Of a stretch of 49,537 bases of DNA, positions 25,402 through 38,125 are shown in pieces. Both the position numbers and the translations under genes were made by a program. Position 1 is the stretch's first letter; each line of letters starts with the position of its first letter. The DNA is taken from NCBI RefSeq assembly GCF_016863275.1, contig NZ_BOOO01000054.1, positions 1 through 49,537 on the forward strand, in the 5' to 3' direction. Source of the DNA: Planotetraspora mira. GTDB taxonomy: Bacteria > Actinomycetota > Actinomycetes > Streptosporangiales > Streptosporangiaceae. Below the pieces are notes generated by a model. It had not been told where the DNA came from. It worked only from the letters and a program-made list of their open reading frames with translations, and searched no databases.

Positions 25402-26115
25402 TCAGGCCTGGTCACCCAGAACGGCCGAGAGCCGCTCGTCGCGCAGCCGCTGATACCACTCGTCGTTCACCGGCGGCAGCGGCCCGATCGCCCACGAGAG
25501 CAGCAGGTCGGCCAGGGCGGGATTGCGCGCCAGAGCCGGGCCGTGCAGGTAGGTGCCGATGATCTTTCCTGCGACGCAGCCCTCGGTGCCGTCTCCGTTG
25601 CCCGTGCCGACGATCGTCCGCGACAGCGGCCGCACGCCCGGGCCCAGCCGGGTGACGCCCATGTGGTTCTCGAAGCCCGTCAGAGTGGGCAGGCGCAACG
25701 CGGGATCGACCTCCGCGGCCAGTTCGCCGACCGCTCGCCGCTCGCCGCGGCTCGAACTGATGTCGAGCAACTCGAGGCCGGGCACGGGCTGCCCCTCCTC
25801 ACCGCCGAACACCGAGCCCATGATCTGGTAACCCGCGCAGACCGCCAGCATGGCGGCGCCGCGGGCGATCGCCGACTGCAGCCCGCCGTCCTTGCGCAGC
25901 CGCTCGGCGCCGAGGATCTGCGGCCGGTCCTCACCGCCGCCGATGAGGTAGATGTCGCCCTGCTGCGGCACCGGGTCGGACGACCGGACGTGATGGATCC
26001 GGGTCGGGACGCCCCGGGCGCGGGCCCGCTGCTCCAGGACCAGCGCGTTGCCCTGGTCGCCGTAGGTGCTGAGCAGGTCCGGATAGATCCAGACGATTGA
26101 CAATTCAGACTGCAC
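25402..26115 (-). CDS. gatD: Lipid II isoglutaminyl synthase, glutaminase subunit GatD
   Basis: A 237-residue class I glutamine amidotransferase-like subunit. It releases ammonia from glutamine for amidation of the D-Glu alpha-carboxyl of the lipid II stem peptide. The nucleophile Cys93 lies in MLAVCAGYQIMG, and the catalytic His in IGTYLHGPALARNP. The N-terminus (SIVWIYPDLLSTYGDQGNAL) is diagnostic for GatD/CobQ-like proteins. Its start overlaps the murT stop by 11 nt, so MurT and GatD are coupled, as expected for a heterodimer. Confidence 0.94.
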   Translation of the reverse strand: MQSELSIVWIYPDLLSTYGDQGNALVLEQRARARGVPTRIHHVRSSDPVPQQGDIYLIGGGEDRPQILGAERLRKDGGLQSAIARGAAMLAVCAGYQIMGSVFGGEEGQPVPGLELLDISSSRGERRAVGELAAEVDPALRLPTLTGFENHMGVTRLGPGVRPLSRTIVGTGNGDGTEGCVAGKIIGTYLHGPALARNPALADLLLSWAIGPLPPVNDEWYQRLRDERLSAVLGDQA

Positions 26116-27361
26116 GACCGAACTCCGTCCGGATCTGCTGGAACGCGGTGTAGTTGGCGATCACGTCGATCCTGCCCAGCGGCAGCGCGGCCACCGCCTG
26201 GTCGAACGAATCGCAGAGCTGGAACGGGATGCCGGCGACGTCGAGCCGCAACGCAAGGTCGAGACGCCGCTCACCGGTCACGTAGACGGGCCGCCCCCGG
26301 AGGATGCGGTAGTCGACGTCCCAGAGCCACGAGGTGTCCCGGCCGTCCGGCCCCTGGGCGTTGACCGACAAGATGATCGGAAGCCTCGGGTCGGAGACCT
26401 CGAAGGCCTCCAGCCAGCCCGCCGGGTTCTTGGCCAGCAGGAGTCGCAGGGCGCGCCCGTCGCGCTCCACTGTGGTGTAGCGGCCCGCCACCGACGTGAC
26501 CGTCCGCAACCTCGGCAGGGCTCTGGCCGGGTCGAGCCCGAACGCGTCCACCGTGGCCAGCGCGATCGCGGCGTTGGACCGGTTGGCCTCGCCGGGAAGC
26601 TGCAGATCGAGCCGCCAGCGCCGGCCGTGCGGGTCGATCACGTCCTCACCGTCGAGGACCCAGTCGGGCTCGGGGCGATGGAAGGTGCACTCGCGGCAGG
26701 CCCAGTGGACCGACCCCTGCTGCCCCATCTCCCTGGAACCGCCGCGGTCGAGGGGGCCGCCGCACTCGGGGCAGCACCACGAGTCCTCACGCCAGCGCTG
26801 CCCGCCCGACACCCAGGTCACCCGGGCCGCCGTGGACGCGCCCCACGTCACCAGGGGGTCGTCACAGTTGGCGATCACGTGCGCCGGCTTGCCCGCCAGC
26901 GCACGGCGCCACTTCTGCGCAAGCAGCCAGATCTCGGCCGCACGGTCCATCTGGTCGCGGCTGAGGTTCATGAGGGTGACGATCCCGGCGTTGGTCGTGT
27001 CGAGCACCTCGGGGAGGTACTTCTCGTCGACCTCGAGCACGGCGAACGGCGCGTGCTTCGCCCCAGACAACGCCGACACGTGGCCTGCCGGCATGTTCGC
27101 ACCGAAGGCGTTGGTGGCCACCTCGCCCAACTCCATGAGCGCCGAGGCGATCAGACGCGTCGTCGTGGTCTTGCCGTTGGTGGCGCTGACCAGGGCGAGC
27201 TTGCGATCTGTGGCGAGCTTGCGGAGCAGATCAGGCTCCAGCATGAGCCCGACCCTGCCGCCGATGACCGACCCGTCGCCGCGTCCGGTGGCCCTGGACA
27301 GCGTCGCGGCCGTGCGGCCCAAGGCACTGGCGAGCTGCGCCCGCAACGGAAGCTGACTCAT
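26105..27361 (-). CDS. murT: Lipid II isoglutaminyl synthase, Mur-ligase subunit MurT
   Basis: A 418-residue Mur-ligase-like ATPase that activates the D-Glu carboxylate of lipid II for amidation with GatD ammonia. The P-loop is in VSATNGKTTTTRLI. The MurT-specific zinc ribbon inserted in the middle domain is visible as CCPECGGPL and ACRECTF. The C-terminal DUF1727 region includes LLLAKNPAGWLEAFEV. The ATG at 27361 is chosen over 27391 because TAGGAT (minus; plus 27369-27374) lies 7 nt upstream and the protein then starts SQLPLRAQLA. Confidence 0.94.
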   Translation of the reverse strand: MSQLPLRAQLASALGRTAATLSRATGRGDGSVIGGRVGLMLEPDLLRKLATDRKLALVSATNGKTTTTRLIASALMELGEVATNAFGANMPAGHVSALSGAKHAPFAVLEVDEKYLPEVLDTTNAGIVTLMNLSRDQMDRAAEIWLLAQKWRRALAGKPAHVIANCDDPLVTWGASTAARVTWVSGGQRWREDSWCCPECGGPLDRGGSREMGQQGSVHWACRECTFHRPEPDWVLDGEDVIDPHGRRWRLDLQLPGEANRSNAAIALATVDAFGLDPARALPRLRTVTSVAGRYTTVERDGRALRLLLAKNPAGWLEAFEVSDPRLPIILSVNAQGPDGRDTSWLWDVDYRILRGRPVYVTGERRLDLALRLDVAGIPFQLCDSFDQAVAALPLGRIDVIANYTAFQQIRTEFGRAV

Positions 27362-27423
27362 GCCCGAGATCCTATCCGCGCTCCCCACCACCGGCCGCCT
27401 CGCGGCTCGGAGCCGTACGGCCC

Positions 27424-27593
27424 TGCATGATCACAAACCGTGAAGACGTAGGCAGGAGGCGACTTTTGCGAACCTGTGCATGATCACGAGTTGTGAAGGT
27501 GCAGGTGAATGTGGTTTCCCCGAACCTGTGCATGATCACGCCCAAGGTTTGGGCAGGTCGGTGGGGGTGTTGCCGAACCTGTGCATGATCACG
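27424..27593. repeat. Regular array of a 20-bp repeat at a 52-53 bp period
   Basis: CGAACCTGTGCATGATCACG occurs exactly three times (27469-27488, 27521-27540, 27574-27593), and a partial copy TGCATGATCAC lies at 27424-27434. Starts are spaced 53, 52 and 53 bp. The 32-34 bp between copies differ but share a CCTGC-like block (minus strand) at similar positions, so the unit is probably a decayed 53-bp tandem repeat. The last copy contains the stop codon of the HerA-like gene. No cas gene is nearby. Confidence 0.8.
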
Positions 27594-30500
27594 CGGGGGG
27601 GATGAAGGACAACTCCGGGGGGGTGTCTCCGTCGAAGGGGAGGACGAACCGGCGGGGCCAGGACAGGACCGTCTCCAGCCAGCCTGCGCCCATCGTCTGG
27701 GCGACGTGCTTGACCCGGTCCTTCGGCTCCACGCCGATCGCGACGGTCCCCACGTCCCGCTGGATGCCCTCGTGCTCGTCGTCTCCGAGGATGACCCGCC
27801 ACGCGAGAGCGCGGTTGCGGTCCACCTCCATCGACAGGGGGTGGTGGCGCAGGGCCTTGGCCCGGTGGCCGAGCAACTCGGTCCTGACCCCCACCGCGAC
27901 GGCCCCCTCACCGGCGGCCGCGGACCCGTTGACCCCCTGGTGCGCGTACGGCCGGCCGACCGGATCGGTGCCGAACAGGGTGTACTCCATCGCCGGGGCG
28001 GCGCTGCGCAAATCGGGTGCGGAATGGCCGAACGGGAACAACCGATCCACTTCGTGCAGCCAGCGGACCTGCGGGATGACCCAGGCCGCCCCCGGGCGCT
28101 CCCCCGCCTGCATCGGCTGCTCCCTGTCCTCCGGGTCCAGCAGTCCCGCGGCGACCTCGGACGCCTTCTCCGTGAGCAGCGTGGGGTCGAACCAGGTCCG
28201 CAGCGACCACGACCTGCGGGCGACGCCGCGCTCGGTGAGGGTCGCGAGCAGGCACTCCCGGCGCTTGACCGGCAACTCGGCCCAGATGTCGGCGAGGACG
28301 CGCGGCACACCGGGCAGAGAGCGGTTCGTCACGAACGACAGAATCACCGTGTCGGTCCAGATCCGCAGCCATGCCCATTCCGGCGCCACGGCGAGCAGGT
28401 CGGCCTCGCGCAGCTCGACCAGCGTGCAGGCCTTGCCCGTACGGCACTCGCGGCCGCAGGCGGCCGAGCGGCGGCCGCAGATGGGCGGGACCGGGCTCAG
28501 CATGGCGCGTTCGCGGTCCTCCCCCAGCGGCACCTGGATGCGCAGCGGGCGGTCCATCCCGTCGGCGAAGACCGCCGCGTAGCCGGGCTGGAGCGAGACG
28601 ACCTGGCGGGACTGGTCCTCGCTCAGGTTCATCGCCGCGCCGACGAGCCGGCGGTCGTCCTCCGCGGGCAGACGGTGGACGACCTTCAGCGCGGTGTTCT
28701 TCACGACGTCGGAGACCAGCTTCGTGGGGATCTGCTCAGCCACGATGATGCCCTCGCCGTACGCCCTGATCTCGGCGAGCATCCCGGCCAGCAGCTCGAC
28801 CGCGTGGGTCGAGGCCCGTTGCGAACCGCGGTCCCTGAGCAGACGGTGGGCCTCCTCGATCACGATGACGTGGCGGAGTCCGGCCGGGCCGTCCTCGTTA
28901 CGCGGGTCCTGCCGGGCACGCATCCGCAGGTGCTCGACGATGCGGATGATGAGCGTGCCCATGAGGAACGCCTTGTCCTCGTCGTTGGCCACGTCCTCGA
29001 TGGCGAGCACCACGTTGCGCTGGAGCAGGCCGCCGATGTCGGCCGGATGACCGCCCTCGAAGAACCGGCCTGCGCTGCCCACCCGCAGGCTGCGCAGCCG
29101 GAGGCTGATGAACCCCTCGACGTCGGCCTGCACCTCGTTGCCGTAGCCGATCTCCTGGATGACCTCCAGGGCGTGCTGCTGCAGCTGCTCGAGGGTCGGT
29201 ACGGCCGGCTGCACCGCCGCGCCGGGGATCCCGCCTCCGGTGACGACGTCCCAGCCGTTGGCCTCGTAGACCCGCTGGAGGGCCAGCGACATGATCTGCG
29301 GGAACGGCTCCTCGGCGTCGAAGGCCGCCATGAAGAGCGCGCGGACCATGTCGATGTGCGCCTGCACCGGATAGCCCGGCTCGGGAGCGAGCGGGTTCAC
29401 GCTGAACGGCACGTTGTCCGGCGCGGACGGGTTGATGACGGTCAGCGGCGCGAGGTTCTCGACCCGGCCCGCCATCGCGGCGTACTCCGACTTGGCCGGC
29501 TCGATGGCCAGCCACGGGATCCCGGCCTTGGTGAGCTCCTCCAGCAGGTGCCTGACCGTCTGCGACTTGCCCGAGCCGGTGGCGCCGGTGATGAAGGCGT
29601 GGCGGTTCAGCGTGGCCAGCGGCACCCGGAACGCGCCCACCGCCCGGTCCTGGCCGTCCACGATCGCCCCGAGGTCGATCAGCTCGGAGGAACCCTCGAT
29701 CTCGGCCTCGCTCGTCACGTCGAAGTAGCCCGCGTCGACCACCCGCACGCCCGGGACCTCCCGGCGCGGCAGTCCCGCGAGAGCGGCGAGCGCGCCCGCC
29801 GTGGCGGCGAACGGCGCGCCCGCCCCGTCGGCGGAGTCCTGCAGGTTGACGGCCAGCGCCTCGGCGAAGCCGTACACGGACTCGCCGGCGGCGATGCCGC
29901 GCTCGGCTCCGGACAGGGCCGGCACGGACATGGCGCTGCGGAGCCGGTAGGGATGGTGGCTCATCTCGACCGAGCCGACCAGCACGGGGGCGAGTTGCCG
30001 CAGTTCGTCGGGGCCCGCGGCGCCCGCGAGCACACGGACGTTCCACAGACCGGCCTCGCGGAACGCGTCGAGCTCCTGCATCCTGCGCTCGGCGCGCTCG
30101 GCGTCGAATCGGGACCTCTCCGAGGCGTCGCCGTACTGGCGCAGGACGTTGAGCTGGGTGCGCAGGTGGGCGACCTCGGTGTCGAGGAGGTCGGTCGGCT
30201 CGGCGACCACCACCCAGCCGAACGGTCGCGACATCAGCGTGACCAGCGTCGACTCGAACAGCGTCGGCCGCTTGTGCTCGTCGGGCTCGGGCTCGCGCCT
30301 GCCGTACAGCGGAGGCGCCTGCCTGCCGGGGCAGGGCGTCCAGACCAGGTCGGCCAGGTCGGCGATCCACTCCTCGCCGATCTCGACCCCGCGGGCACCG
30401 CCGGGGAAGAGCAGCGGCTGAGGACCCGTGACGGGCGCCTCGTCACTCGCGACCGCGCGCTTGGGCGGCCGCGGCGGCGTGAGCGGCCCCGCGTTGGTGA

Positions 30501-30684
30501 TGAGCTCGAGCGGCGCCCCCGAACCACGCGACAACCAGCCGATGACGAACGGGCGGTTGCGCTGTGCGGCGGACAGAACGGCCGGGAGAACGGTGACGAA
30601 GTCCCATTCCGCAGACGAACTCCGCGACGGGGCGGCGATCGCCTGGATCCGGTACCACGGCCCGCTCAGGGGGAACGGATGCAT
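27589..30684 (-). CDS. HerA/FtsK-type ATPase (DUF87-like)
   Basis: A 1031-residue P-loop ATPase. The N-terminal about 340 residues are unassigned and include a helical stretch (165-215). Walker A GATGSGKS is at 367-374, Walker B VIVIEEAH at 606-613 and the HerA-type sensor AEQIPTKLVSDVVKNTALK at 649-667. A four-cysteine cluster follows at about 736, 743, 747 and 753, possibly a zinc site, then a unique C-terminal about 270 residues. HerA/FtsK ATPases are hexameric motors moving DNA or protein; the substrate here is unknown. No membrane helix is seen. The ATG at 30684 has GAGGGG just upstream. It lies 96 bp downstream of its membrane-anchored relative, in one probable operon. Confidence 0.85.
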   Translation of the reverse strand: MHPFPLSGPWYRIQAIAAPSRSSSAEWDFVTVLPAVLSAAQRNRPFVIGWLSRGSGAPLELITNAGPLTPPRPPKRAVASDEAPVTGPQPLLFPGGARGVEIGEEWIADLADLVWTPCPGRQAPPLYGRREPEPDEHKRPTLFESTLVTLMSRPFGWVVVAEPTDLLDTEVAHLRTQLNVLRQYGDASERSRFDAERAERRMQELDAFREAGLWNVRVLAGAAGPDELRQLAPVLVGSVEMSHHPYRLRSAMSVPALSGAERGIAAGESVYGFAEALAVNLQDSADGAGAPFAATAGALAALAGLPRREVPGVRVVDAGYFDVTSEAEIEGSSELIDLGAIVDGQDRAVGAFRVPLATLNRHAFITGATGSGKSQTVRHLLEELTKAGIPWLAIEPAKSEYAAMAGRVENLAPLTVINPSAPDNVPFSVNPLAPEPGYPVQAHIDMVRALFMAAFDAEEPFPQIMSLALQRVYEANGWDVVTGGGIPGAAVQPAVPTLEQLQQHALEVIQEIGYGNEVQADVEGFISLRLRSLRVGSAGRFFEGGHPADIGGLLQRNVVLAIEDVANDEDKAFLMGTLIIRIVEHLRMRARQDPRNEDGPAGLRHVIVIEEAHRLLRDRGSQRASTHAVELLAGMLAEIRAYGEGIIVAEQIPTKLVSDVVKNTALKVVHRLPAEDDRRLVGAAMNLSEDQSRQVVSLQPGYAAVFADGMDRPLRIQVPLGEDRERAMLSPVPPICGRRSAACGRECRTGKACTLVELREADLLAVAPEWAWLRIWTDTVILSFVTNRSLPGVPRVLADIWAELPVKRRECLLATLTERGVARRSWSLRTWFDPTLLTEKASEVAAGLLDPEDREQPMQAGERPGAAWVIPQVRWLHEVDRLFPFGHSAPDLRSAAPAMEYTLFGTDPVGRPYAHQGVNGSAAAGEGAVAVGVRTELLGHRAKALRHHPLSMEVDRNRALAWRVILGDDEHEGIQRDVGTVAIGVEPKDRVKHVAQTMGAGWLETVLSWPRRFVLPFDGDTPPELSFIPPA

Positions 30685-30780
30685 GAGACCCCTCACTTGA
30701 CGACGAACAGGGGAGAGACTCCTTCAACGATCAAGTGCTCACATCCCTGTTGACGATGCCCTTACCGGATCCGGACGGTG

Positions 30781-32709
30781 TCATGGCCGCTTGCGCCAGT
30801 CGAGCCGGGGCGGCGGAGGACCGAGATTCGGCGGCGGCGCGTCCTCGTCGAGCTCGAGCGGCTCGGGCTCCTCGGAGCGCAGCGCGACCCGCCTCAGCTC
30901 CTGGAACTCGCCCAGCGTCGTCTTGGGGAAGGTGAGGATCGCGGGGTTGGCGTCCGCGAGCCTGACCTGCCGCCCCTCGGCGGTCGCATGGGTGACGATG
31001 ACCGACGTGGTGGGGAGTTGCTGCAGTTGGTGCGGCTCGACGAGGAACTCCCGCGAGCGCTGCAGCACGCCCTCGGCGACCTGGGGAGCGGTGCGCCCCC
31101 ACTCGGTCGACTCGGTGATGTCCTCCTTGAGGTCGCCCTCCCCCTTCTCCTCCGGGCCGGTACGGCCTTCGCCGACGGTGGAGGTGTAGAACCCGCTCGG
31201 GGGATGGACGGACGAGCTGAACGTCTCGGTGAGCTGGGCCAGTTCGAGACGGTGCTCGGTGCCGACGTGCTCGCTCGCGACCCTGGCGTCCTCTGCGTTG
31301 CCCAGGCGCATGAACGCGACGGCGGCGTGGCCCCTGCCGAGCCGTTCCCTGACCGTGGGGGTGAGGCTGCGGTAGGTCAGCACGAGCCCCGTACGGGACG
31401 TCTCACAGGCGTCCATGAGCCGGTCGAGCACGTCGCCGCGCAGCTTGTCCGCCCCGGCCACGATGATCGTGTGATACCAGGGCCGCTCGCTCGCCGGAGA
31501 CTGGCGCAGGATGTGCGTGAGCGCCGTGGCCACGTAGGTGCCGAGCACCCGGTTGCCGAAGACGCCCGCCTGGCGGTCCATGCTGACCACGCGCAACCGT
31601 GCCGGCGGCAGCCGTACGGCCTCGGAGCCGAGCGTCTCCAGCTTGCGTAATTGCGACTCCAGCGCCCAGGCCCGCTCGATCACGACGCGGTCGGCGACGC
31701 CCCGGCCGAACAGGGTGCCGATGCGTTCGAGCTGGGTCGCGGTCAGCAGGCCGTACTTCATGTCGTCGCGCGGGTCACCCACCTGGGCGAGTGCCCGGAG
31801 CGCCGCGGTGACCTGGCTGATCGTGGCGTTCTCCCCGAGGACCTCGAGGACCCGCTCCAGGATGGCGTTGTCGAACCCGATGTCCCTGCTGGTCTCCTCG
31901 CTCACGCTCACGACGTGGGCGAGCACGTCGGCGAAGGCCTCCGGCTTGAGCGTGGCACCCAGGTCGAGCCGCGGCAGGTCCACCGGAAGCACCCACACCA
32001 GCGGGTCGTCGCCGCCCCTCTTCGCCAGCTCGATGAGGTCCTTGGCGATGGCCCCCTCGGACAGGTCGAGCACGGTGAGGTGACCGCCGCTGTAGAGCCG
32101 GGTCGCGCCGATCAGGGTGATCAGGGCCGACCAGCCCGCGAGCGTCCCGCCTGCGACGTCGACGCGGTCGATCTCGTCGGGCACGGCCACCGCGTACCAG
32201 TTCAGCTGCTTGTCGAACGTGGTCTTCTTCTCGGCCCAGGCACGGTACTCGGCGGCGTGCTCCTCCTGGGCCGTCATGATCTCGCGCTCGCGCCGCTCCT
32301 GCGTCCGCTGCTCCCGAGCGAGGCGCTCGTTCACCCGTACGCCGACCGCGCGGTTGCCCTGGACGATCGCATAGGTGCAGATCCCGGCCACACCGCCCGC
32401 CGCGACCAGTCCGAGCAGCACGAACGACCACGCGAGCATCTGCGTCACCCCGAGGGCGAAGATGCCGACCGCGACGACGGCCATGAAACGGCGGAAGATC
32501 CGGACCGGGCGGTTGAGCATGTCCTCCTGGAGCCGCTCCCGCTGGGCCCATTCCGCCTCGGCGGGCGCTTGGGCGTCCGCCTCTTCGATGTCCTCCCGGG
32601 CGGGACGTTTGGGTGGGGGCCCCGGATCTGAATGCAGCAGGGCGTACTGCCAGCCCAGGTAGATACGGTCCGCCTGAAGCTGAGCATGCTCCGGGTGCGG
32701 GTCGCCCAC
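30781..32709 (-). CDS. Membrane-anchored TraG/HerA-like protein with degenerate ATPase motifs
   Basis: A 642-residue protein. A cytoplasmic N-terminus is followed by two adjacent membrane helices (about 74-113), a charged helical linker and a P-loop-like domain. Where Walker A is expected I see GGTLAGWSAL (187-196), without the catalytic Lys. Where Walker B is expected I see TIIVAGADKL (414-423), without the Asp-Glu pair. The following GLVLTYRSL and RLGNAEDARVASEHVGTEHR segments resemble the C-terminus of TraG/VirD4-type coupling proteins. It is probably a pseudo-ATPase anchoring the HerA-like motor to the membrane. The GTG start has GGAGGG upstream. Confidence 0.7.
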   Translation of the reverse strand: MGDPHPEHAQLQADRIYLGWQYALLHSDPGPPPKRPAREDIEEADAQAPAEAEWAQRERLQEDMLNRPVRIFRRFMAVVAVGIFALGVTQMLAWSFVLLGLVAAGGVAGICTYAIVQGNRAVGVRVNERLAREQRTQERREREIMTAQEEHAAEYRAWAEKKTTFDKQLNWYAVAVPDEIDRVDVAGGTLAGWSALITLIGATRLYSGGHLTVLDLSEGAIAKDLIELAKRGGDDPLVWVLPVDLPRLDLGATLKPEAFADVLAHVVSVSEETSRDIGFDNAILERVLEVLGENATISQVTAALRALAQVGDPRDDMKYGLLTATQLERIGTLFGRGVADRVVIERAWALESQLRKLETLGSEAVRLPPARLRVVSMDRQAGVFGNRVLGTYVATALTHILRQSPASERPWYHTIIVAGADKLRGDVLDRLMDACETSRTGLVLTYRSLTPTVRERLGRGHAAVAFMRLGNAEDARVASEHVGTEHRLELAQLTETFSSSVHPPSGFYTSTVGEGRTGPEEKGEGDLKEDITESTEWGRTAPQVAEGVLQRSREFLVEPHQLQQLPTTSVIVTHATAEGRQVRLADANPAILTFPKTTLGEFQELRRVALRSEEPEPLELDEDAPPPNLGPPPPRLDWRKRP

Positions 32710-32853
32710 AAGCCCTCCATGTCCGCCTGGGTCACAGCGTAGGAGCTATAAGCCCTATCAGGACGGGCTTCTCGGCATTCGGACGCAATTCCGGCCAGCG
32801 ATGGGACGAATGCGGCTAATGGTTCGACTGCGGGCGTACTACCATCCGGTGCC

Positions 32854-33507
32854 ATGATGTCATCCCCCCGCGGCAGCCGCCGTCGACGTCCGGTCCTGGT
32901 TCCGGTCGCCTCCGCGGTGCTGGCGGCGGGCATCGGCGTGACCGCCGTCTCCGGCGGCTTCGCCCAGGCGGCCGACGATCCACCCCCGAAGGTCGCTCCA
33001 GGCAAGATGATCGACCAGGGCCAGTTCCGCACGCAGTTCGTCAAGGCGGCCGACACCACCCAGCCGGGCACCTTCGGCGATCTCAAGCGTTACCTGGTGC
33101 TCACTCTCAAGGTCACCAACCTGGGCGATGAGACCACAGGCATCGGCCTCCTCCCGGAGGCTGACAAGATCGGGTCGATGCCCCTCAACTTCGCGGGTTC
33201 CATCCTCCGCATGCGACCGGAGATCAAGACGAAGTACGGACCCGAGGTCTACGGGACGGATTTCGGGGTCAAGACCGGGCTTCTGCAGCCTGGTGTGGCG
33301 ACGACCGTGCTCGTGAAGTTCGAACTCGAGCCCACGGCCACGGCTCCCACCTCAGTCACTCTGGACGTCGGCAGCTTCGTCTACGAGCCGCTCGGACTAC
33401 GGGACCAGACGCATTACTGGCAACTCGTCGGTGACGATGACGACGACGGGTTCGTCCCCACGGTGGCCGCGGAGGTCACCCTCCCAGTGACGCGGGAGCG
33501 CGGGTGA
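32854..33507 (+). CDS. Exported or membrane-anchored protein with probable Ig/telokin-like domain
   Basis: A 217-residue protein. A basic N-terminus (RGSRRRRP) and one hydrophobic segment (VLVPVASAVLAAGIGVTAVSG) form a signal peptide or anchor. The rest is strand-rich (RYLVLTLKVTNLGDETTGIGL, TTVLVKFELEP), like DUF4352-type beta sandwiches. The function is unknown. ATG ATG at 32854, 8 nt after TACCAT (32840-32845). It is the first of three plus-strand genes divergent from the ATPase pair, with a 4-nt GTGA overlap to the next gene. Confidence 0.7.
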   Translation: MMSSPRGSRRRRPVLVPVASAVLAAGIGVTAVSGGFAQAADDPPPKVAPGKMIDQGQFRTQFVKAADTTQPGTFGDLKRYLVLTLKVTNLGDETTGIGLLPEADKIGSMPLNFAGSILRMRPEIKTKYGPEVYGTDFGVKTGLLQPGVATTVLVKFELEPTATAPTSVTLDVGSFVYEPLGLRDQTHYWQLVGDDDDDGFVPTVAAEVTLPVTRERG

Positions 33508-34181
33508 TGACGATGACGCGACAGGAACCGGGAACCACCCCGCGGCAGGCACGCAGACCCGTGGAGCGGCGGAGCGTCGTCGGCCGCGTCGCGGCGATGG
33601 TCGCCGGGATCGCCCTGGCGGCGGCCGCGGTGTGGGCCCAGTCGAACGCCATGCCGTACGAGCAGCGCGGCTCCTTCCTCACCACCAAGGGCGAGATCGG
33701 CCGGCCCGTGGAGACGAACCGCTACACCGTGCAGGTGACGTCGGTGACGGCGGCACACATGGTGGATACGCGGAACTTCTCCAGCGAGACCGTGAAGGTC
33801 GCGACCCGCTACCTGTTCCTTCTGGTGAACCTCAGGGCGACCACCCGCAGCGAGCCCATGCAGCTGAGCAAGCTGGGGCCGCCCGAGCTTCTCACCGCGG
33901 ACGGCAAGCGATACAAGCCCACCGACAAGGTGGATGAGTCGCTCACCTTCTTCGCCAAGCAGGTCCAGCCGGGGCTCTGGTCCGCCGGAACCCTCGTCTA
34001 CGAGGTTCCCGCCGCCGCCATACCGGGCGTCCGCTTCGTCTTCATCCCGCCCGTCGCCGCGATAGTCGTGGACAACTCCGCGCCAGAAGCGGAGATCGAC
34101 CTGGGCCTCACCAGCGCGGACGCCGCCCGGCTGATCTCACGGGCAGAGGCGTACCACCCCCTGGTGACCAAGACCTCATGA
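33504..34181 (+). CDS. Single-pass membrane protein with probable beta-sandwich domain
   Basis: A 225-residue protein. A short basic cytoplasmic N-terminus (RQARRPVERRSVVGR) and one membrane helix (about residues 28-45) precede an extracytoplasmic domain (GEIGRPVETNRYTVQVTSVT, RYLFLLVNLRATTRSEPMQL, GTLVYEVP). The arrangement parallels the preceding protein, and both look like DUF4352-type folds. The function is unknown. The GTG start overlaps the upstream stop by 4 nt. Confidence 0.7.
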   Translation: MMTMTRQEPGTTPRQARRPVERRSVVGRVAAMVAGIALAAAAVWAQSNAMPYEQRGSFLTTKGEIGRPVETNRYTVQVTSVTAAHMVDTRNFSSETVKVATRYLFLLVNLRATTRSEPMQLSKLGPPELLTADGKRYKPTDKVDESLTFFAKQVQPGLWSAGTLVYEVPAAAIPGVRFVFIPPVAAIVVDNSAPEAEIDLGLTSADAARLISRAEAYHPLVTKTS

Positions 34182-34215
34182 GCCGAAGAATCGGGAAGAC
34201 GTGCGAGGTTCTGAC

Positions 34216-35103
34216 GTGAGCGAGACGCCGATGGGCGGAGACCGGCAGGACCCCGGCTCTCCCGACTCCCGGGACTGGTTCGCCCCGCCTTTGGACCAGC
34301 CGGCGGACATGGACATCACCTACACGGGCCCACCGCCCCAGCCTCCCTCGATACCCATTCCGGGGACGCTCCGGCCGGTCGGGGACCTGCGGGTCTGGCC
34401 GGCCCTGTCGGAGGAGGAGCACACCATGACGGTGCCCTTCCCCGCCGTCCCCGGCACCCGCGTCGAGTTGCCCGCCCACTACAGGCGGCCCTCGCCGCCG
34501 GCGCCGCCGCCTCCTCCCGCGCGCAAGAAGATGTCACGCGGTCGGCGGCGCGTCCTGCTGGGGTCGGGCGCGTTCCTCTCCGTGGCCGCCGCCATCGCGT
34601 TTCCGCTCTGGTTCGCCCGAGGCGTCTACGAGTACGGCCGGCCAAGCGACCACATCCACATCGTCAAGCCCAAACAAGCCGCAACCTGGCAACACGTGTC
34701 GTGGCGGGTGGCCTTGTGGCCCATAGCCGATCCGGGTCCGAGCGCGAAGCCGGACCCCTCACGTCAGTGGATGAAGGTCGTCGTCACCAGGACGGCTCTG
34801 GACGGTGAGGGCGCCATCCGGCACGGCACCCCCGACGTGAAGCTGACGGACGGGTCAGGCCGCACCTGGCTCGCGCAGCTCGTCAACGACACCACTCCCT
34901 CGGCCACGGCCGAGAACAAGGTCGGGACGCTGTACAAGATCGAGCTGATGGGCGTGGTCCCGACGTCCGTCGCCGACAAGATCGAGGTCCTGGTACGGCC
35001 CAGCATCACCCGCGACGTGCCCGGCCAGTCGTTCGACGACTCGATGAAGGCGTCGGTCACGACCGAGGAGAAGCAAGACCAGGTGCTCAGGTTCACCCGG
35101 TGA
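34216..35103 (+). CDS. Single-pass membrane protein with Pro-rich cytoplasmic domain
   Basis: A 295-residue protein. Its Pro-rich N-terminus of about 105 residues ends in PSPPAPPPPPARKK, followed by one membrane helix (about 113-132) and an extracytoplasmic domain of about 160 residues with strand-like segments (HVSWRVALWPIA, WMKVVVTRTALDGEG, TLYKIELMGVVP). The start is uncertain between GTG 34216 and GTG 34201. It is the third gene of the plus-strand set; its end overlaps the convergent polytopic gene by 11 nt. The function is unknown. Confidence 0.65.
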   Translation: MSETPMGGDRQDPGSPDSRDWFAPPLDQPADMDITYTGPPPQPPSIPIPGTLRPVGDLRVWPALSEEEHTMTVPFPAVPGTRVELPAHYRRPSPPAPPPPPARKKMSRGRRRVLLGSGAFLSVAAAIAFPLWFARGVYEYGRPSDHIHIVKPKQAATWQHVSWRVALWPIADPGPSAKPDPSRQWMKVVVTRTALDGEGAIRHGTPDVKLTDGSGRTWLAQLVNDTTPSATAENKVGTLYKIELMGVVPTSVADKIEVLVRPSITRDVPGQSFDDSMKASVTTEEKQDQVLRFTR

Positions 35104-36385
35104 CCCGGGGCCGGCGCAGCCGGTCACGGGTGGCCGCCAGATCGAAGGTCGCGGCGATGAGGCACATGGTCAGGGTCGTGACCACGAACTCGGAGACGAA
35201 GAAGACCGGGACGTCGGTGATGAACCAGAAGTACGGCTTGTCGCTGGCGACCAGGTACTGACCCGCCCTGGTGAGATAGTCGCCGCCGATGTGCAGACCG
35301 ACGTAGCAGAGCGCGAACAGCCCGAACAGCGGCGCCCCTCCCCTGGCCGTCAGCCGGAGGGAGTTGAGCAGTGGGATCCAGCGCTCGGTCCATCCCGCGG
35401 TGAGTTTGGAGAGGGCCCGCCGGGTCAGGCTGTGCGTGTCCTGCAGCCGGGCGGCGGCCACCTCGAGGGGCGTGCCCCTGATCGTGGTCTGCGTGTCCTC
35501 CGCGTAGGCCCCGTAGACGAGGATGCCGATGGTCAGCCACGCCAGCGGAAGGGCGAGTCCGGAGATCACATTCGGCCAGATGTCCGACCAGAACGTCTCC
35601 CATCCGGGGATCGCACTCTGCGCGTCCGTCGCCAACTTCTCCCCACCCGCGACCACGGCCCGGTCACCGATCCAGGCCGAGCGGACGCCCACCGCGGCCC
35701 CGATGGCGTTGAGCCCGTAGAAGACGAACGCGAGCTCCCCGAAGGTCGCCACGATCCCCGAGAACCGGCCCTGTCCCGCCTCGTGCCGCCGGCCGAAGAT
35801 GGTCTTCACCCCGTAGGCCACGACGGCCGTCACGAGCGAGACCTTCCAGTCGAGACTGATCAGGCCCCCCATCACCGTGCTCTCCCGGCCGGCCATGACG
35901 TCGACGAGGATCCCGTCCGGCTGGCGGAACAGGTCGATGTTCAAGAAATCGCGGAGGTCCTGGTCGACGAAGCCCCAGGTCATGTAAATACCTGAGAAGA
36001 CCAGTGCCGTCCGGTTGAGCGCCCCGAACAGGCCCTCCTGCGCCTCGCTCGCGTTCCTGCGGGCCCGGGTCTCCATCAGAGCGCCCCGGATCACGTACAA
36101 CATGCCCACCGTGGTCGCGAGAGAGATCATCACGACGAGCGTGAAGAGGAACAGGACCACGACCAGGCGGGCCTGATACCACGACCCGTGTGAGAGGGTC
36201 GCCGCCAGCAGCAGCAACGCCCACCGCACGAGTCGCCCGGCGGAGAACCAGATGATCAGCGGCAGTGCGCACTGCGCGGCGATGCGGAAGGTGTGCAACG
36301 GGAGCGCGTACGGCGACAGCGTCCAGGTCGCCTTGGGGGCAGCGGCAGCCTGGATCGGGGCAGGGAGCGCGGACGTTCCGGACAT
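35093..36385 (-). CDS. Polytopic membrane protein of unknown function
   Basis: A 430-residue protein with about seven to eight predicted membrane helices (for example ARLVVVLFLFTLVVMISLAT, WKVSLVTAVVAYGVKTIFG, LALPLAWLTIGILVYGAYA, LFGLFALCYVGLHIGG and a last one before the basic C-terminus RDRLRRPRVTG). No transporter or enzyme motif is recognisable. A GATAAC hexamer (minus; plus 36395-36400) directly precedes an ATG at 36394 and is 9 nt from the ATG at 36385, so I prefer the latter as a leaderless start. Its position suggests it belongs with the ATPase cluster. Confidence 0.65.
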   Translation of the reverse strand: MSGTSALPAPIQAAAAPKATWTLSPYALPLHTFRIAAQCALPLIIWFSAGRLVRWALLLLAATLSHGSWYQARLVVVLFLFTLVVMISLATTVGMLYVIRGALMETRARRNASEAQEGLFGALNRTALVFSGIYMTWGFVDQDLRDFLNIDLFRQPDGILVDVMAGRESTVMGGLISLDWKVSLVTAVVAYGVKTIFGRRHEAGQGRFSGIVATFGELAFVFYGLNAIGAAVGVRSAWIGDRAVVAGGEKLATDAQSAIPGWETFWSDIWPNVISGLALPLAWLTIGILVYGAYAEDTQTTIRGTPLEVAAARLQDTHSLTRRALSKLTAGWTERWIPLLNSLRLTARGGAPLFGLFALCYVGLHIGGDYLTRAGQYLVASDKPYFWFITDVPVFFVSEFVVTTLTMCLIAATFDLAATRDRLRRPRVTG

Positions 36386-36518: not shown

Positions 36519-36824
36519 TCAGACGGCGACGGCGAGCTGGGAGACCTCGCCGAGCTTCGCCTCGACCGAGACGTCCTTCGTGACGCCCCCGCCCGCGATG
36601 ATGCGGACGGTCCACTGGCCCGGGGCCGCGAAGAAGCGGAAGATGCCCTCGTCGGAGACGACGACCTCACCGGTGAACTCGCCGGAGTGGTCGAGCAGGC
36701 GCGCGTAGGCCGTGCCGGCGCCGGAGACGACACCCTGGATCACGGCCTGCGTCGACAGGTCGATGCCGGCCGGCAGCGCGACGGTCTGCTCCGGAGCTGC
36801 GCAACCTTGTGCTTGAACGGTCAT
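36519..36824 (-). CDS. DUF1416 protein, SseC-like
   Basis: A 101-residue protein of the DUF1416 family, called SseC in mycobacteria, where it is paired with thiosulfate sulfurtransferase CysA. It is strand-rich (STQAVIQGVVSGAGTAYARL, GEVVVSDEGIFRFFAAPGQW) and probably a transthyretin-like small beta sandwich. Its role in sulfur metabolism is inferred from gene pairing. The ATG overlaps the sulfurtransferase stop codon (TGATG). Confidence 0.87.
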   Translation of the reverse strand: MTVQAQGCAAPEQTVALPAGIDLSTQAVIQGVVSGAGTAYARLLDHSGEFTGEVVVSDEGIFRFFAAPGQWTVRIIAGGGVTKDVSVEAKLGEVSQLAVAV

Positions 36825-37663
36825 CAGCGGGCCTCCCCCAACTCGATCGGCACGCCCACGAGCGAGCCGTACTCGGTCCACGAACCGTCGTAGTTCTTGA
36901 CGTTCGCCTGGTCGAGGATCTCGTGCAGCACGAACCACGAGTGCGCCGAGCGCTCCCCGATGCGGCAGTAGGCGATGGTGTCCTTGCCGAAGTCGACGCC
37001 CTCACCGGAGTAGAGGTCCTTCAGCTCGTCGTCGGAGCGGAAGGTGCCGTCGTCGTTGGCCGCCTTCGACCACGGGATGTTGCGGGCCGTGGGCACGTGG
37101 CCCGCACGCTGGGCCTGCTCCTGCGGAAGGTGGGCGGGGGCGAGCAGCTTGCCGGTGAACTCGTCGGGCGAGCGGACGTCGACCAGGTTCTGCTTGCCGA
37201 TCGCGGCGACGACGTCGTCACGGAAGGCGCGGATCGACAGGTCCTGCTCGGAGGCGGTGTAGGTGGTGGCGGAACGGGCCGCCACGTCCTCGACCAGCTC
37301 GCGGGAGTCGAGCTCCCACTTCTTGCGGCCACCGTCGAGCAGCTTGACGTTCTCGTGGCCGTAAAGCTTGAAGTACCAGTACGCGTAGGCGGCGAACCAG
37401 TTGTTGTTGCCGCCGTAGAGGACGACGGTGTCGTCGTTGGCGATGCCACGGGCCGACAGGAGGGCCTCGAAGCCCGCCTTGTCGACGAAGTCACGGCGGA
37501 CCGGGTCCTGCAGGTCCTGCCTCCAGTCGATCTTCACGGCACCGCGGATGTGGCCCTTGGCGTAGGCGCTGGTGTCCTCGTCGACCTCGACGAGCACGAC
37601 ACCGGGCGTGTCGAGGTTGGCCTCGACCCAGTCGGCATCCACCAGGACGGCGGAGCGGCTCAT
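36824..37663 (-). CDS. Thiosulfate sulfurtransferase (double-rhodanese)
   Basis: A 279-residue two-domain rhodanese that transfers sulfane sulfur from thiosulfate to cyanide or thiol acceptors. The inactive N-terminal rhodanese domain is about residues 5-130. The C-terminal domain holds the active-site loop CRIGERS in IAYCRIGERSAHSW. The motif after LVDVRSPDEF is conserved. It corresponds to mycobacterial CysA2/CysA3 (from memory). It overlaps the upstream DUF4395 gene by 4 nt (ATGA) and the downstream SseC-like gene by 1 nt, giving a tightly coupled three-gene operon. Confidence 0.94.
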   Translation of the reverse strand: MSRSAVLVDADWVEANLDTPGVVLVEVDEDTSAYAKGHIRGAVKIDWRQDLQDPVRRDFVDKAGFEALLSARGIANDDTVVLYGGNNNWFAAYAYWYFKLYGHENVKLLDGGRKKWELDSRELVEDVAARSATTYTASEQDLSIRAFRDDVVAAIGKQNLVDVRSPDEFTGKLLAPAHLPQEQAQRAGHVPTARNIPWSKAANDDGTFRSDDELKDLYSGEGVDFGKDTIAYCRIGERSAHSWFVLHEILDQANVKNYDGSWTEYGSLVGVPIELGEAR

Positions 37664-38070
37664 TGTGTTCTCCCAGGTTGTAGACGGCGGATGATCAGGT
37701 ACATCTCGCAGCCCAGGCAGAGGCCGAAGGCGGCGTTGAGAAAGGCGGCCAGCAGTGCCGCTGCTGTCGCACCCAGAGCCAGCGGAGTGATTCCTGCCGC
37801 GAACCCGATCAACCCCACGATCGCGAACCCAAGCCCGACGCCCTGCGCGAAGCGCGGTGGTGCCGCGTCCTCCAACTCGCTCGGCGGTCCCAGCCGCGGC
37901 CGCACGAGTCTCCGGAACAGGAGGCCGTACGGGGAGGCGTCGAAAGCACCGAACGCGAACACGACCGCCTGCAGGGCGAGCAGCCAGGGGCTGCGCGTCA
38001 CCAGGGTGATCGCGAGAATCAGAGTCGTGACGGCCGCACCGAACCGGGGGCCTCGAGGGTCGATTTGCAT
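37660..38070 (-). CDS. DUF4395 membrane protein
   Basis: A 136-residue protein with about three to four membrane helices and a conserved cysteine pair in FGLCLGCEMYLII near the C-terminus, the hallmark of DUF4395. It often precedes thiosulfate sulfurtransferase in actinobacteria and may handle sulfur or thiol transfer at the membrane; this is inference. AGGAG lies about 10 nt before the ATG. It is the first structural gene after the leader peptide. Confidence 0.85.
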   Translation of the reverse strand: MQIDPRGPRFGAAVTTLILAITLVTRSPWLLALQAVVFAFGAFDASPYGLLFRRLVRPRLGPPSELEDAAPPRFAQGVGLGFAIVGLIGFAAGITPLALGATAAALLAAFLNAAFGLCLGCEMYLIIRRLQPGRTQ

Positions 38071-38125
38071 CGTGGGATGCTCCTGAACGATTCACGGAAT
38101 GCGGCGAAAGCCGCGGGAATCACCC

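Follow-up and report, generated by a model that had tools for sequence, protein, structure and literature searches.

A HerA-type ATPase and membrane protein pair of Planotetraspora mira with probable links to polymorphic toxins in its relatives

The window analysed here is the whole of a 49,537-nucleotide stretch of Planotetraspora mira DNA (NZ_BOOO01000054.1; a single 49.5-kb contig of a 9.0-Mb genome). It carries a block of six genes, P1 to P6, in which P1 encodes a predicted HerA-type ATPase and P2 a membrane protein (Table 1). By a narrow balance of the sequence comparisons, we favour the reading that P2 and P1 form a two-gene ATP-driven membrane module that would deliver polymorphic toxins in the wider family, that the window copy most likely keeps protein translocation for an unlinked or envelope-related cargo, and that P3–P6 are independent. 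This reading is based on the linkage of P1 and P2, toxin-type genes beside P1, their constant heads and variable tails, the match between head and motor, and some immunity-type neighbours.

All six reading frames were confirmed at the positions given in an earlier note on this DNA, with third-position GC content (GC3) of the coding type. Judged by P1, its nearest named relatives are Planotetraspora species of the Streptosporangiaceae. We compared the block with two sets of loci. The near loci are the best 80 of 223 related loci in named genomes, all 80 of which were examined. More distant P1, ~40–56% identical, occur in other families and elsewhere in the Streptosporangiaceae; the distant set comprises 54 P1 loci. 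The gene caller was simple and its start positions are approximate.

Conservation of the P2–P1 pair

P2 adjoined P1 in 79 of the 80 near loci and lay 33–265 bp before it; the exception, L020, is a short contig. In the distant set, P2 was called on the same stretch in 40/54 loci and was recovered by tblastn in one more (L140), where the gene caller had missed it. Eight of the 13 remaining loci, in which P2 was not found, belong to a still more distant sister group. We conclude that P2 and P1 almost certainly form a unit, as the earlier note had proposed for the motor and its membrane partner.

P1 matched the HerA_C (37.2 bits; cut-off 22) and DUF87 (30.0 bits; cut-off 23.2) profiles, and its Walker A (GxTGxGKS, residues ~371–378) and Walker B (EEAH, ~612–617) motifs were intact in 28/28 aligned sequences, including that of the window. 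Profile matches and motifs thus place P1 among the HerA/FtsK superfamily ATPases and bear out its initial description as a HerA-like ATPase with intact Walker motifs. It consists of one P-loop unit without a predicted transmembrane (TM) helix and has a cysteine cluster at ~740–758 that is lost in L107 and L116. Among solved proteins, P1 is nearest in sequence to HerA-named ATPases and to related helicase or ATP-binding chains. P1 was found in 45/394 genomes of the class (E≤1e-25) and P2 in 69/394 (E≤1e-10).

P2 has two predicted TM helices, at ~75 and ~97. The earlier note had called it a membrane-anchored relative of P1 with decayed motifs. The membrane part of that description holds, with no intact Walker motif and a GGTxxGW-type stretch at the expected Walker A site, variable in some relatives (33 aligned). 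Kinship with the ATPase did not receive the same support. No Pfam, NCBIfam or PADLOC model matched P2, and a profile comparison with P1 was not significant (hhalign probability 0.2%, E 0.26), despite alignment of IVAGADKL of P2 on VIEEAHRL in the Walker B region of P1. A decayed relative of an ATPase is therefore possible but unproven, and we rejected P2 as a proven pseudo-ATPase. Against solved structures, a profile built from near-family P2 matched an ABC exporter at 22 bits, over the helical part only (profile positions 51–214); with a wider P2 profile this match was not repeated and no useful match appeared.

A few loci depart from the common arrangement. A sister P1 family (L120, L144, L145), ~36–42% identical over part of its length, showed no P2 and has a small one-TM protein upstream; in some of its members a disordered gene follows P1, in one case with a weak GIY-YIG match. 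L109 (G182:C1:344000-363500) is a second P1 copy, 34% identical, near a bacterial dynamin-like gene. L114 (G000:C30), the second HerA-like gene of its genome, is 504 aa long and has a weak P1 match (41 bits). A Streptomyces plasmid (L172, CP108998.1) has a partial P1-like match inside a gene annotated as a zeta toxin family protein, an annotation that may be wrong. Two P2 genes stand in tandem ahead of one P1 at L103:9580-14351, and an arabinofuranosyltransferase-like gene (AftA_N, 58.9 bits) adjoins P2 at L095:13965-15923.

Table 1. Genes of the block and the two genes beyond P1, by window position.
Gene	Position	Strand	Predicted product	Evidence or remark
gatD	25402..26115	-	lipid II isoglutaminyl synthase, amidotransferase subunit	GATase_3 117.6 bits; overlaps murT
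murT	26105..27391	-	lipid II isoglutaminyl synthase, ligase subunit	MurT_C 62.4 bits; possible operon partner of P1
P1	27589..30696	-	predicted HerA-type ATPase motor, 1031-1035 aa	HerA_C and DUF87 profiles, motifs
P2	30781..32709	-	membrane partner, 642 aa, two predicted TM helices	33-265 bp before P1
P3	32854..33507	+	probably exported small protein	74/80 near loci (tblastn)
P4	33504..34181	+	DUF4352 protein (34.6 bits), N-terminal hydrophobic segment	74/80 near loci
P5	34201..35103	+	Pro-rich tail, one TM (~113), extracytoplasmic domain	Pro-rich stretch precedes predicted TM
P6	35093..36394	-	polytopic membrane protein (hydropathy)	convergent with P5

Toxin-type genes downstream of P1 in relatives

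In 21 of the 54 distant P1 loci, the complete gene that follows P1, here called X, begins with a disordered, mostly acidic and Pro-rich stretch. The X genes were picked by a rule of N-terminal composition, so the disordered head is partly a result of selection; the toxin domains, the match of head to motor and the following genes are independent of the rule. Twenty-four next frames passed it, and three of these were dropped: L121 and L136, truncated where the stretch ends, and L145, a member of the sister family without P2 with only the weak GIY-YIG match. Several X genes (for example L130 and L134) had been missed by the gene caller and were recovered by a plain reading-frame scan. Of the 414 called genes in these loci with a length of 290 aa or more, 25 passed the rule, some of them X genes themselves; PPP occurred in the first 35 residues of 11/21 X and of 11/414 called genes, the latter again including some X. 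Thirty distant loci failed the rule, among them window-type loci, a one-genus clade (g64 of family f19), L107 and L150, which have P2 but no X accepted by the rule (L150 missed it narrowly), and L119, L146, L148 and L149 with neither P2 nor X found.

The start of X lay between −43 and +48 bp from the stop of P1 in 20/21 loci, with a 4-bp overlap in eight; the distance was 283 bp in L105. P2 was present within 4 kb of P1 in all 21 X loci and within 0.8 kb in 14 of them; in the group of L098 it is placed after X. Eight of the 21 C-termini matched toxin-type Pfam families above cut-off: YwqJ deaminase (L103, L130, L131, L133), ADP-ribosyltransferase (L106, L115), EndoU (L102) and a calpain-type protease (L105). 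Three further matches were weak, to Ribonuclease (L132; 23.9 bits, cut-off 24), RelA/SpoT (L117; 22.8 bits, cut-off 27) and lipase (L116; 14.4 bits, cut-off 22). No TM helix was predicted in 19/21 X.

We scanned nine of the genes that follow X. One encodes a Barstar (68.4 bits) and stands after a barnase-type X, one an ankyrin protein after a lipase-like X, and two encode MORN-repeat proteins after deaminase X; one matched DUF6406 and four were not recognised. Named plasmid loci of this type occur in Streptomyces clavuligerus (pSCL4), Nocardia sp. NBC_01377 and Streptomyces antimycoticus. The S. clavuligerus plasmid locus is made up of P2, the ATP-binding protein, an ADP-ribosyltransferase and a small protein. 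We rate the link of P2–P1 relatives to toxins as very probable.

Constant heads and exchanged tails

Pairs of loci show that the two ends of X vary separately. L098 and L132 are 97% identical in P1, 97% in P2 and 96% over the first 60 residues of X, and the C-termini of their X are unrelated. Conversely, L103 and L133 are 54% identical in P1 and have unrelated X heads, and their C-termini are 76% identical over 153 residues. Over the 21 X, the similarity of the first 30 residues followed P1 identity with a Mantel r of 0.71 (0/2000 permutations as high; rank correlation 0.22), a signal that stems mainly from close relatives. For the last 160 residues the values were 0.21 (53/2000 permutations) and 0.11. 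Because head similarity tracks P1 while tails swap between clades, these sequences suggest a correspondence between the X head and the motor module.

A constant N-terminus with swapped toxin-type C-termini is the pattern of polymorphic toxins, and the relatives of P2–P1 show it. As in the polymorphic toxin systems surveyed in PMC3482391, their third gene is sometimes followed by an immunity-type gene. FtsK/HerA-type ATPases are named there for type VII delivery, and FtsK-related ones for the type IV route. A stand-alone HerA with a P2-type partner is absent from the parts of that account available to us, and the window copy, unlike the systems described, has no linked toxin.

Given the head/tail pattern, the match of head to motor and X proteins mostly without predicted TM helices, export by P2–P1 appears to be the most economical reading, and we regard it as the probable mechanism of the pair. 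P2 would hold the motor P1 at the membrane, as anchor or channel. P1 would recognize the disordered acidic or Pro-rich head of the toxin encoded directly downstream and push the toxin out of the cell, and an immunity protein encoded next to the toxin would protect the producer.

Comparison with known systems

Like type VII secretion (ESX/Yuk, with EccC/EssC), the proposed route would use a motor of the FtsK–HerA superfamily for toxin export in Gram-positive bacteria. Unlike that system, P1 is one P-loop unit without a predicted TM helix; no WXG/LXG family was found in X and no Ecc/Ess family among the block genes scanned, so that the block does not qualify as a type VII system.

A different explanation is that P1 and X act inside the cell, in defence or abortive infection, with swappable effectors as in HerA-DUF4297 and with the small neighbours as antitoxins. 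We consider this rather unlikely. Several HerA-named chains act in defence, and the nearest solved chains to P1 are, by name, HerA chains. The best PADLOC matches of P1 were mad8 (67.8 bits) and HerA models, and some P2–P1–X loci lie on plasmids. HerA-DUF4297 is described as a two-component anti-phage complex (PMC12198126, PMC11291478), and it shares with our loci a HerA ATPase with interchangeable effectors. It differs from them in the membrane partner, present near P1 in 21/21 X loci, and in the disordered toxin heads and some immunity-type genes found here; exported polymorphic toxins account better for long heads that go with the motor clade and for a Barstar neighbour. PADLOC matched none of nine other window proteins and none of the eight non-P1 proteins scanned from X loci. 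Thus no named HerA effector (Sir2, DUF4297, NurA or similar) appeared in the scan, and the MADS system was represented among the window proteins scanned by the mad8 match of P1 only.

HerA/FtsK-type motors are classically DNA pumps. P1 and P2 could accordingly be a DNA translocase for the passage of chromosomal or plasmid DNA through septa or from hypha to hypha, comparable to TraB or Cmd of Streptomyces, with the toxins of relatives as addiction or competition cargo. This seems improbable to us. P1 matched the DNA import protein CedD weakly (64.9 bits; cut-off 600), which does not make the block a Ced system, and TrwB over 33 residues only (21.2 bits; cut-off 20.5); matches to VirB4/TraG-type models fell below cut-off. 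Library scans of the block genes gave no relaxase or mating-pore family, so that neither type IV secretion nor conjugation is indicated, and DNA transport does not readily account for toxin-type genes with a constant head that are coupled to P1. According to PMC2782261, the cmdABCDEF cluster of Streptomyces coelicolor affects sporulation and chromosome segregation and, like the block, combines a membrane-located ATP-binding protein with membrane proteins. It differs in gene set and in ATPase layout, with the ATPase domain of CmdB at residues 44–427, a distinction that follows the paper's description.

A HerA–P2 toxin module was not described in the literature searched, including the available parts of PMC7159879 and PMC12857230; subscription papers and preprints lay outside that search, which makes this weak evidence of novelty.

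Several observations weigh against toxin export as the function of P2–P1. The known roles of HerA-named ATPases are DNA repair or defence, not protein export. The libraries and profile comparisons used did not demonstrate a relation of P2 to a transporter or an ATPase, no membrane channel was recognized, and the two predicted TM helices of P2 may be too few for one. Among the Streptosporangiaceae genomes sampled, as counted from a listing ordered by kinship, P2 occurred in 41/41 (E≤1e-10) and P1 in 20/41 (E≤1e-25), so P2 must also have a role independent of P1; in L113, from another family, P2 stands with neither P1 nor murT nearby. P2 lies 1.7–3.9 kb from P1 in seven X loci and on the opposite strand in L105 and L106. 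Ten of the 21 X gave no useful Pfam domain match, and no known immunity type was recognised in five of the nine genes scanned after X; to count MORN proteins as immunity proteins is a guess. The sampled toxin loci are related, not independent, and export, head recognition and the role of P2 are read from sequence patterns. Finally, no convincing X was found beside P1 in the 80 loci of the window clade, and the window copy may therefore do something else.

P3–P6 as a separate module

Analysis of the small genes next to P2 agreed with the earlier note: the reading frames of P3 and P4 overlap, P4 is a DUF4352 protein, and in P5 a Pro-rich stretch precedes one predicted TM helix. Hydropathy likewise agrees with P6 as a polytopic membrane protein; it had no Pfam match above cut-off, and its profile had no useful match among solved structures. 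Motifs of the P5 tail, such as DWFAPP and VWPP, recurred in most of eight relatives compared. A sulfurtransferase (rhodanese) gene and a DUF1416 gene lie upstream of P6, at 36519–38095 of the window, and this neighbourhood is conserved in many relatives.

The earlier note had interpreted P3–P6 as channel and external subunits of the same machine as P1 and P2. In such a six-gene envelope machine, P1 would be the motor, P2 the anchor, P6 the channel and P3–P5 the external subunits. P3 and P4 share a stretch with P2–P1 in 74/80 near loci, mostly directly beside P2, as this would require; L020, L045, L078 and L088 have too little upstream sequence to judge. The same neighbourhoods also separate the two groups of genes. 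P2–P1 occurred with full flanks and without the block, by tblastn, in L029 and L059, the former with two short genes that seemingly belong to P3–P6-type clusters. P6, P4 and P3 were doubled beside a single P2–P1 in L034, L035 and L044, and other genes separated the P3–P6 block from P2 in L039, L043 and L049. A profile search of called genes found P3–P6 in none of the distant P1 loci searched except L118, which is of the window's own type.

P6 was detected in 42/388 genomes of the class (E≤1e-5), and relatives 24–31% identical occur in other actinobacterial families and elsewhere in genomes of the family. A profile search of nine loci with P6 relatives (L161–L169) revealed a P4-like neighbour in 9/9 and a P3-like one in 7/9, and neither P1 nor P2 within the surrounding 18 kb. 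Two further loci from one genome (L170 and L171), on contigs that end within the region, were uninformative. In some P6-relative loci a third small exported protein, at best weakly P5-like, takes the place of P5.

Since P6 relatives with P3- and P4-like neighbours recur without P1 and P2, P3–P6 appear to be a separate module, best read as an independent envelope cluster beside P2–P1. Together with the doubling of the block and its separation from P2, these loci led us to reject a single six-gene machine, which we rate as very improbable. We also rejected the Pro-rich tail of P5 as a docking signal restricted to P1-bearing loci: similar stretches precede the corresponding gene in L163 and L164, which lack P1. 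The block proposed initially is real and its gene neighbourhood is conserved; it consists of two modules, not of one six-gene set. The separateness of P3–P6 was missing from the earlier account, as were murT and gatD 3′ of P1.

The window clade and murT–gatD

Toxin-linked loci were spread over the P2-containing part of a tree built from 63 P1 sequences. Two P1 clades are without X. One is the long-branched Streptosporangiaceae clade to which the window belongs, the other the one-genus clade g64 of f19; genus g64 also carries X-linked P1 copies. The deep branches of the tree are poorly supported, several below 0.3, and the direction of change is therefore uncertain.

We searched the near loci for an overlooked toxin gene between P1 and murT. 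In 58/80 of these, murT starts within 300 bp of P1, too close for an X to fit between them. A reading-frame scan of the remaining 22 gave one frame that passes the composition rule (L054, 308 aa), opposite a called gene of 460 aa. None of the candidates was convincing, and the inserted genes are others. The initial statement that no toxin gene is present thus holds for the window and, with this one doubtful frame, for its 80 near relatives. At L085:13462-15354, a large ATPase gene with a small partner is inserted between P1 and murT, which we take to resemble a defence pair.

murT and gatD were present together in 75/80 near loci, and in 58 of the 75 the distance from P1 to murT was at most 300 bp. 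They were absent from L024 and L052–L054 despite at least 8.6 kb of sequence after P1, and L020 was too short to tell. The best NCBIfam matches of gatD were GatD models, below their cut-offs. Ten loci with P2 and without P1 were examined; in nine of these, all within the family, murT–gatD follows P2 directly. The toxin-free g64 clade adjoins a YkuD L,D-transpeptidase-like gene (L122, the one locus scanned; 24.3 bits, cut-off 23.4), and genes with similar C-termini, judged by eye, stand in sister loci.

This neighbourhood could mean that the window copy serves peptidoglycan synthesis, P2 (and P1 where present) placing or regulating MurT–GatD or an envelope factor at the membrane, with export only part of its ancestry. 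The recurrence of murT–gatD beside P1 and, in the nine P1-less loci, beside P2 fits this explanation, as does the YkuD-like gene of the other toxin-free clade. A conserved neighbourhood is its sole basis, four near loci have no murT after P1, and MurT–GatD functions without P1 and P2 in other bacteria. We therefore judge it unlikely.

Returning to the protein-translocating module, we consider that the window copy is probably a fixed, repurposed copy in the Streptosporangiaceae, which would most likely have kept its protein-translocating activity for a cargo that is unlinked or envelope-related. Protein export by the window copy itself is somewhat doubtful. As both toxin-free clades adjoin peptidoglycan-related genes, a shift from toxin delivery to a role in the envelope is at most a fair speculation.

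Implications

Our comparisons suggest that the P2–P1 family is an unrecognized machine that handles, and probably exports, proteins. More tentatively, P2–P1 may be the core of an undescribed actinobacterial secretion system, in which a HerA motor on a two-helix partner would export polymorphic toxins by pulling or pushing a long disordered acidic or Pro-rich head. Such a system might twice, in the Streptosporangiaceae and in a second family, have lost its linked toxin and become fixed beside peptidoglycan genes, passing from a weapon to envelope housekeeping.

If this is true, actinobacteria would possess a minimal ATP-driven route of polymorphic toxin delivery in addition to type VII and contractile systems. 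The motor is clear, a cargo signal is likely, and named loci such as that on pSCL4 of Streptomyces clavuligerus would make the route open to test. Much of a bacterial family would then have kept a delivery machine beside its genes for lipid II amidation.

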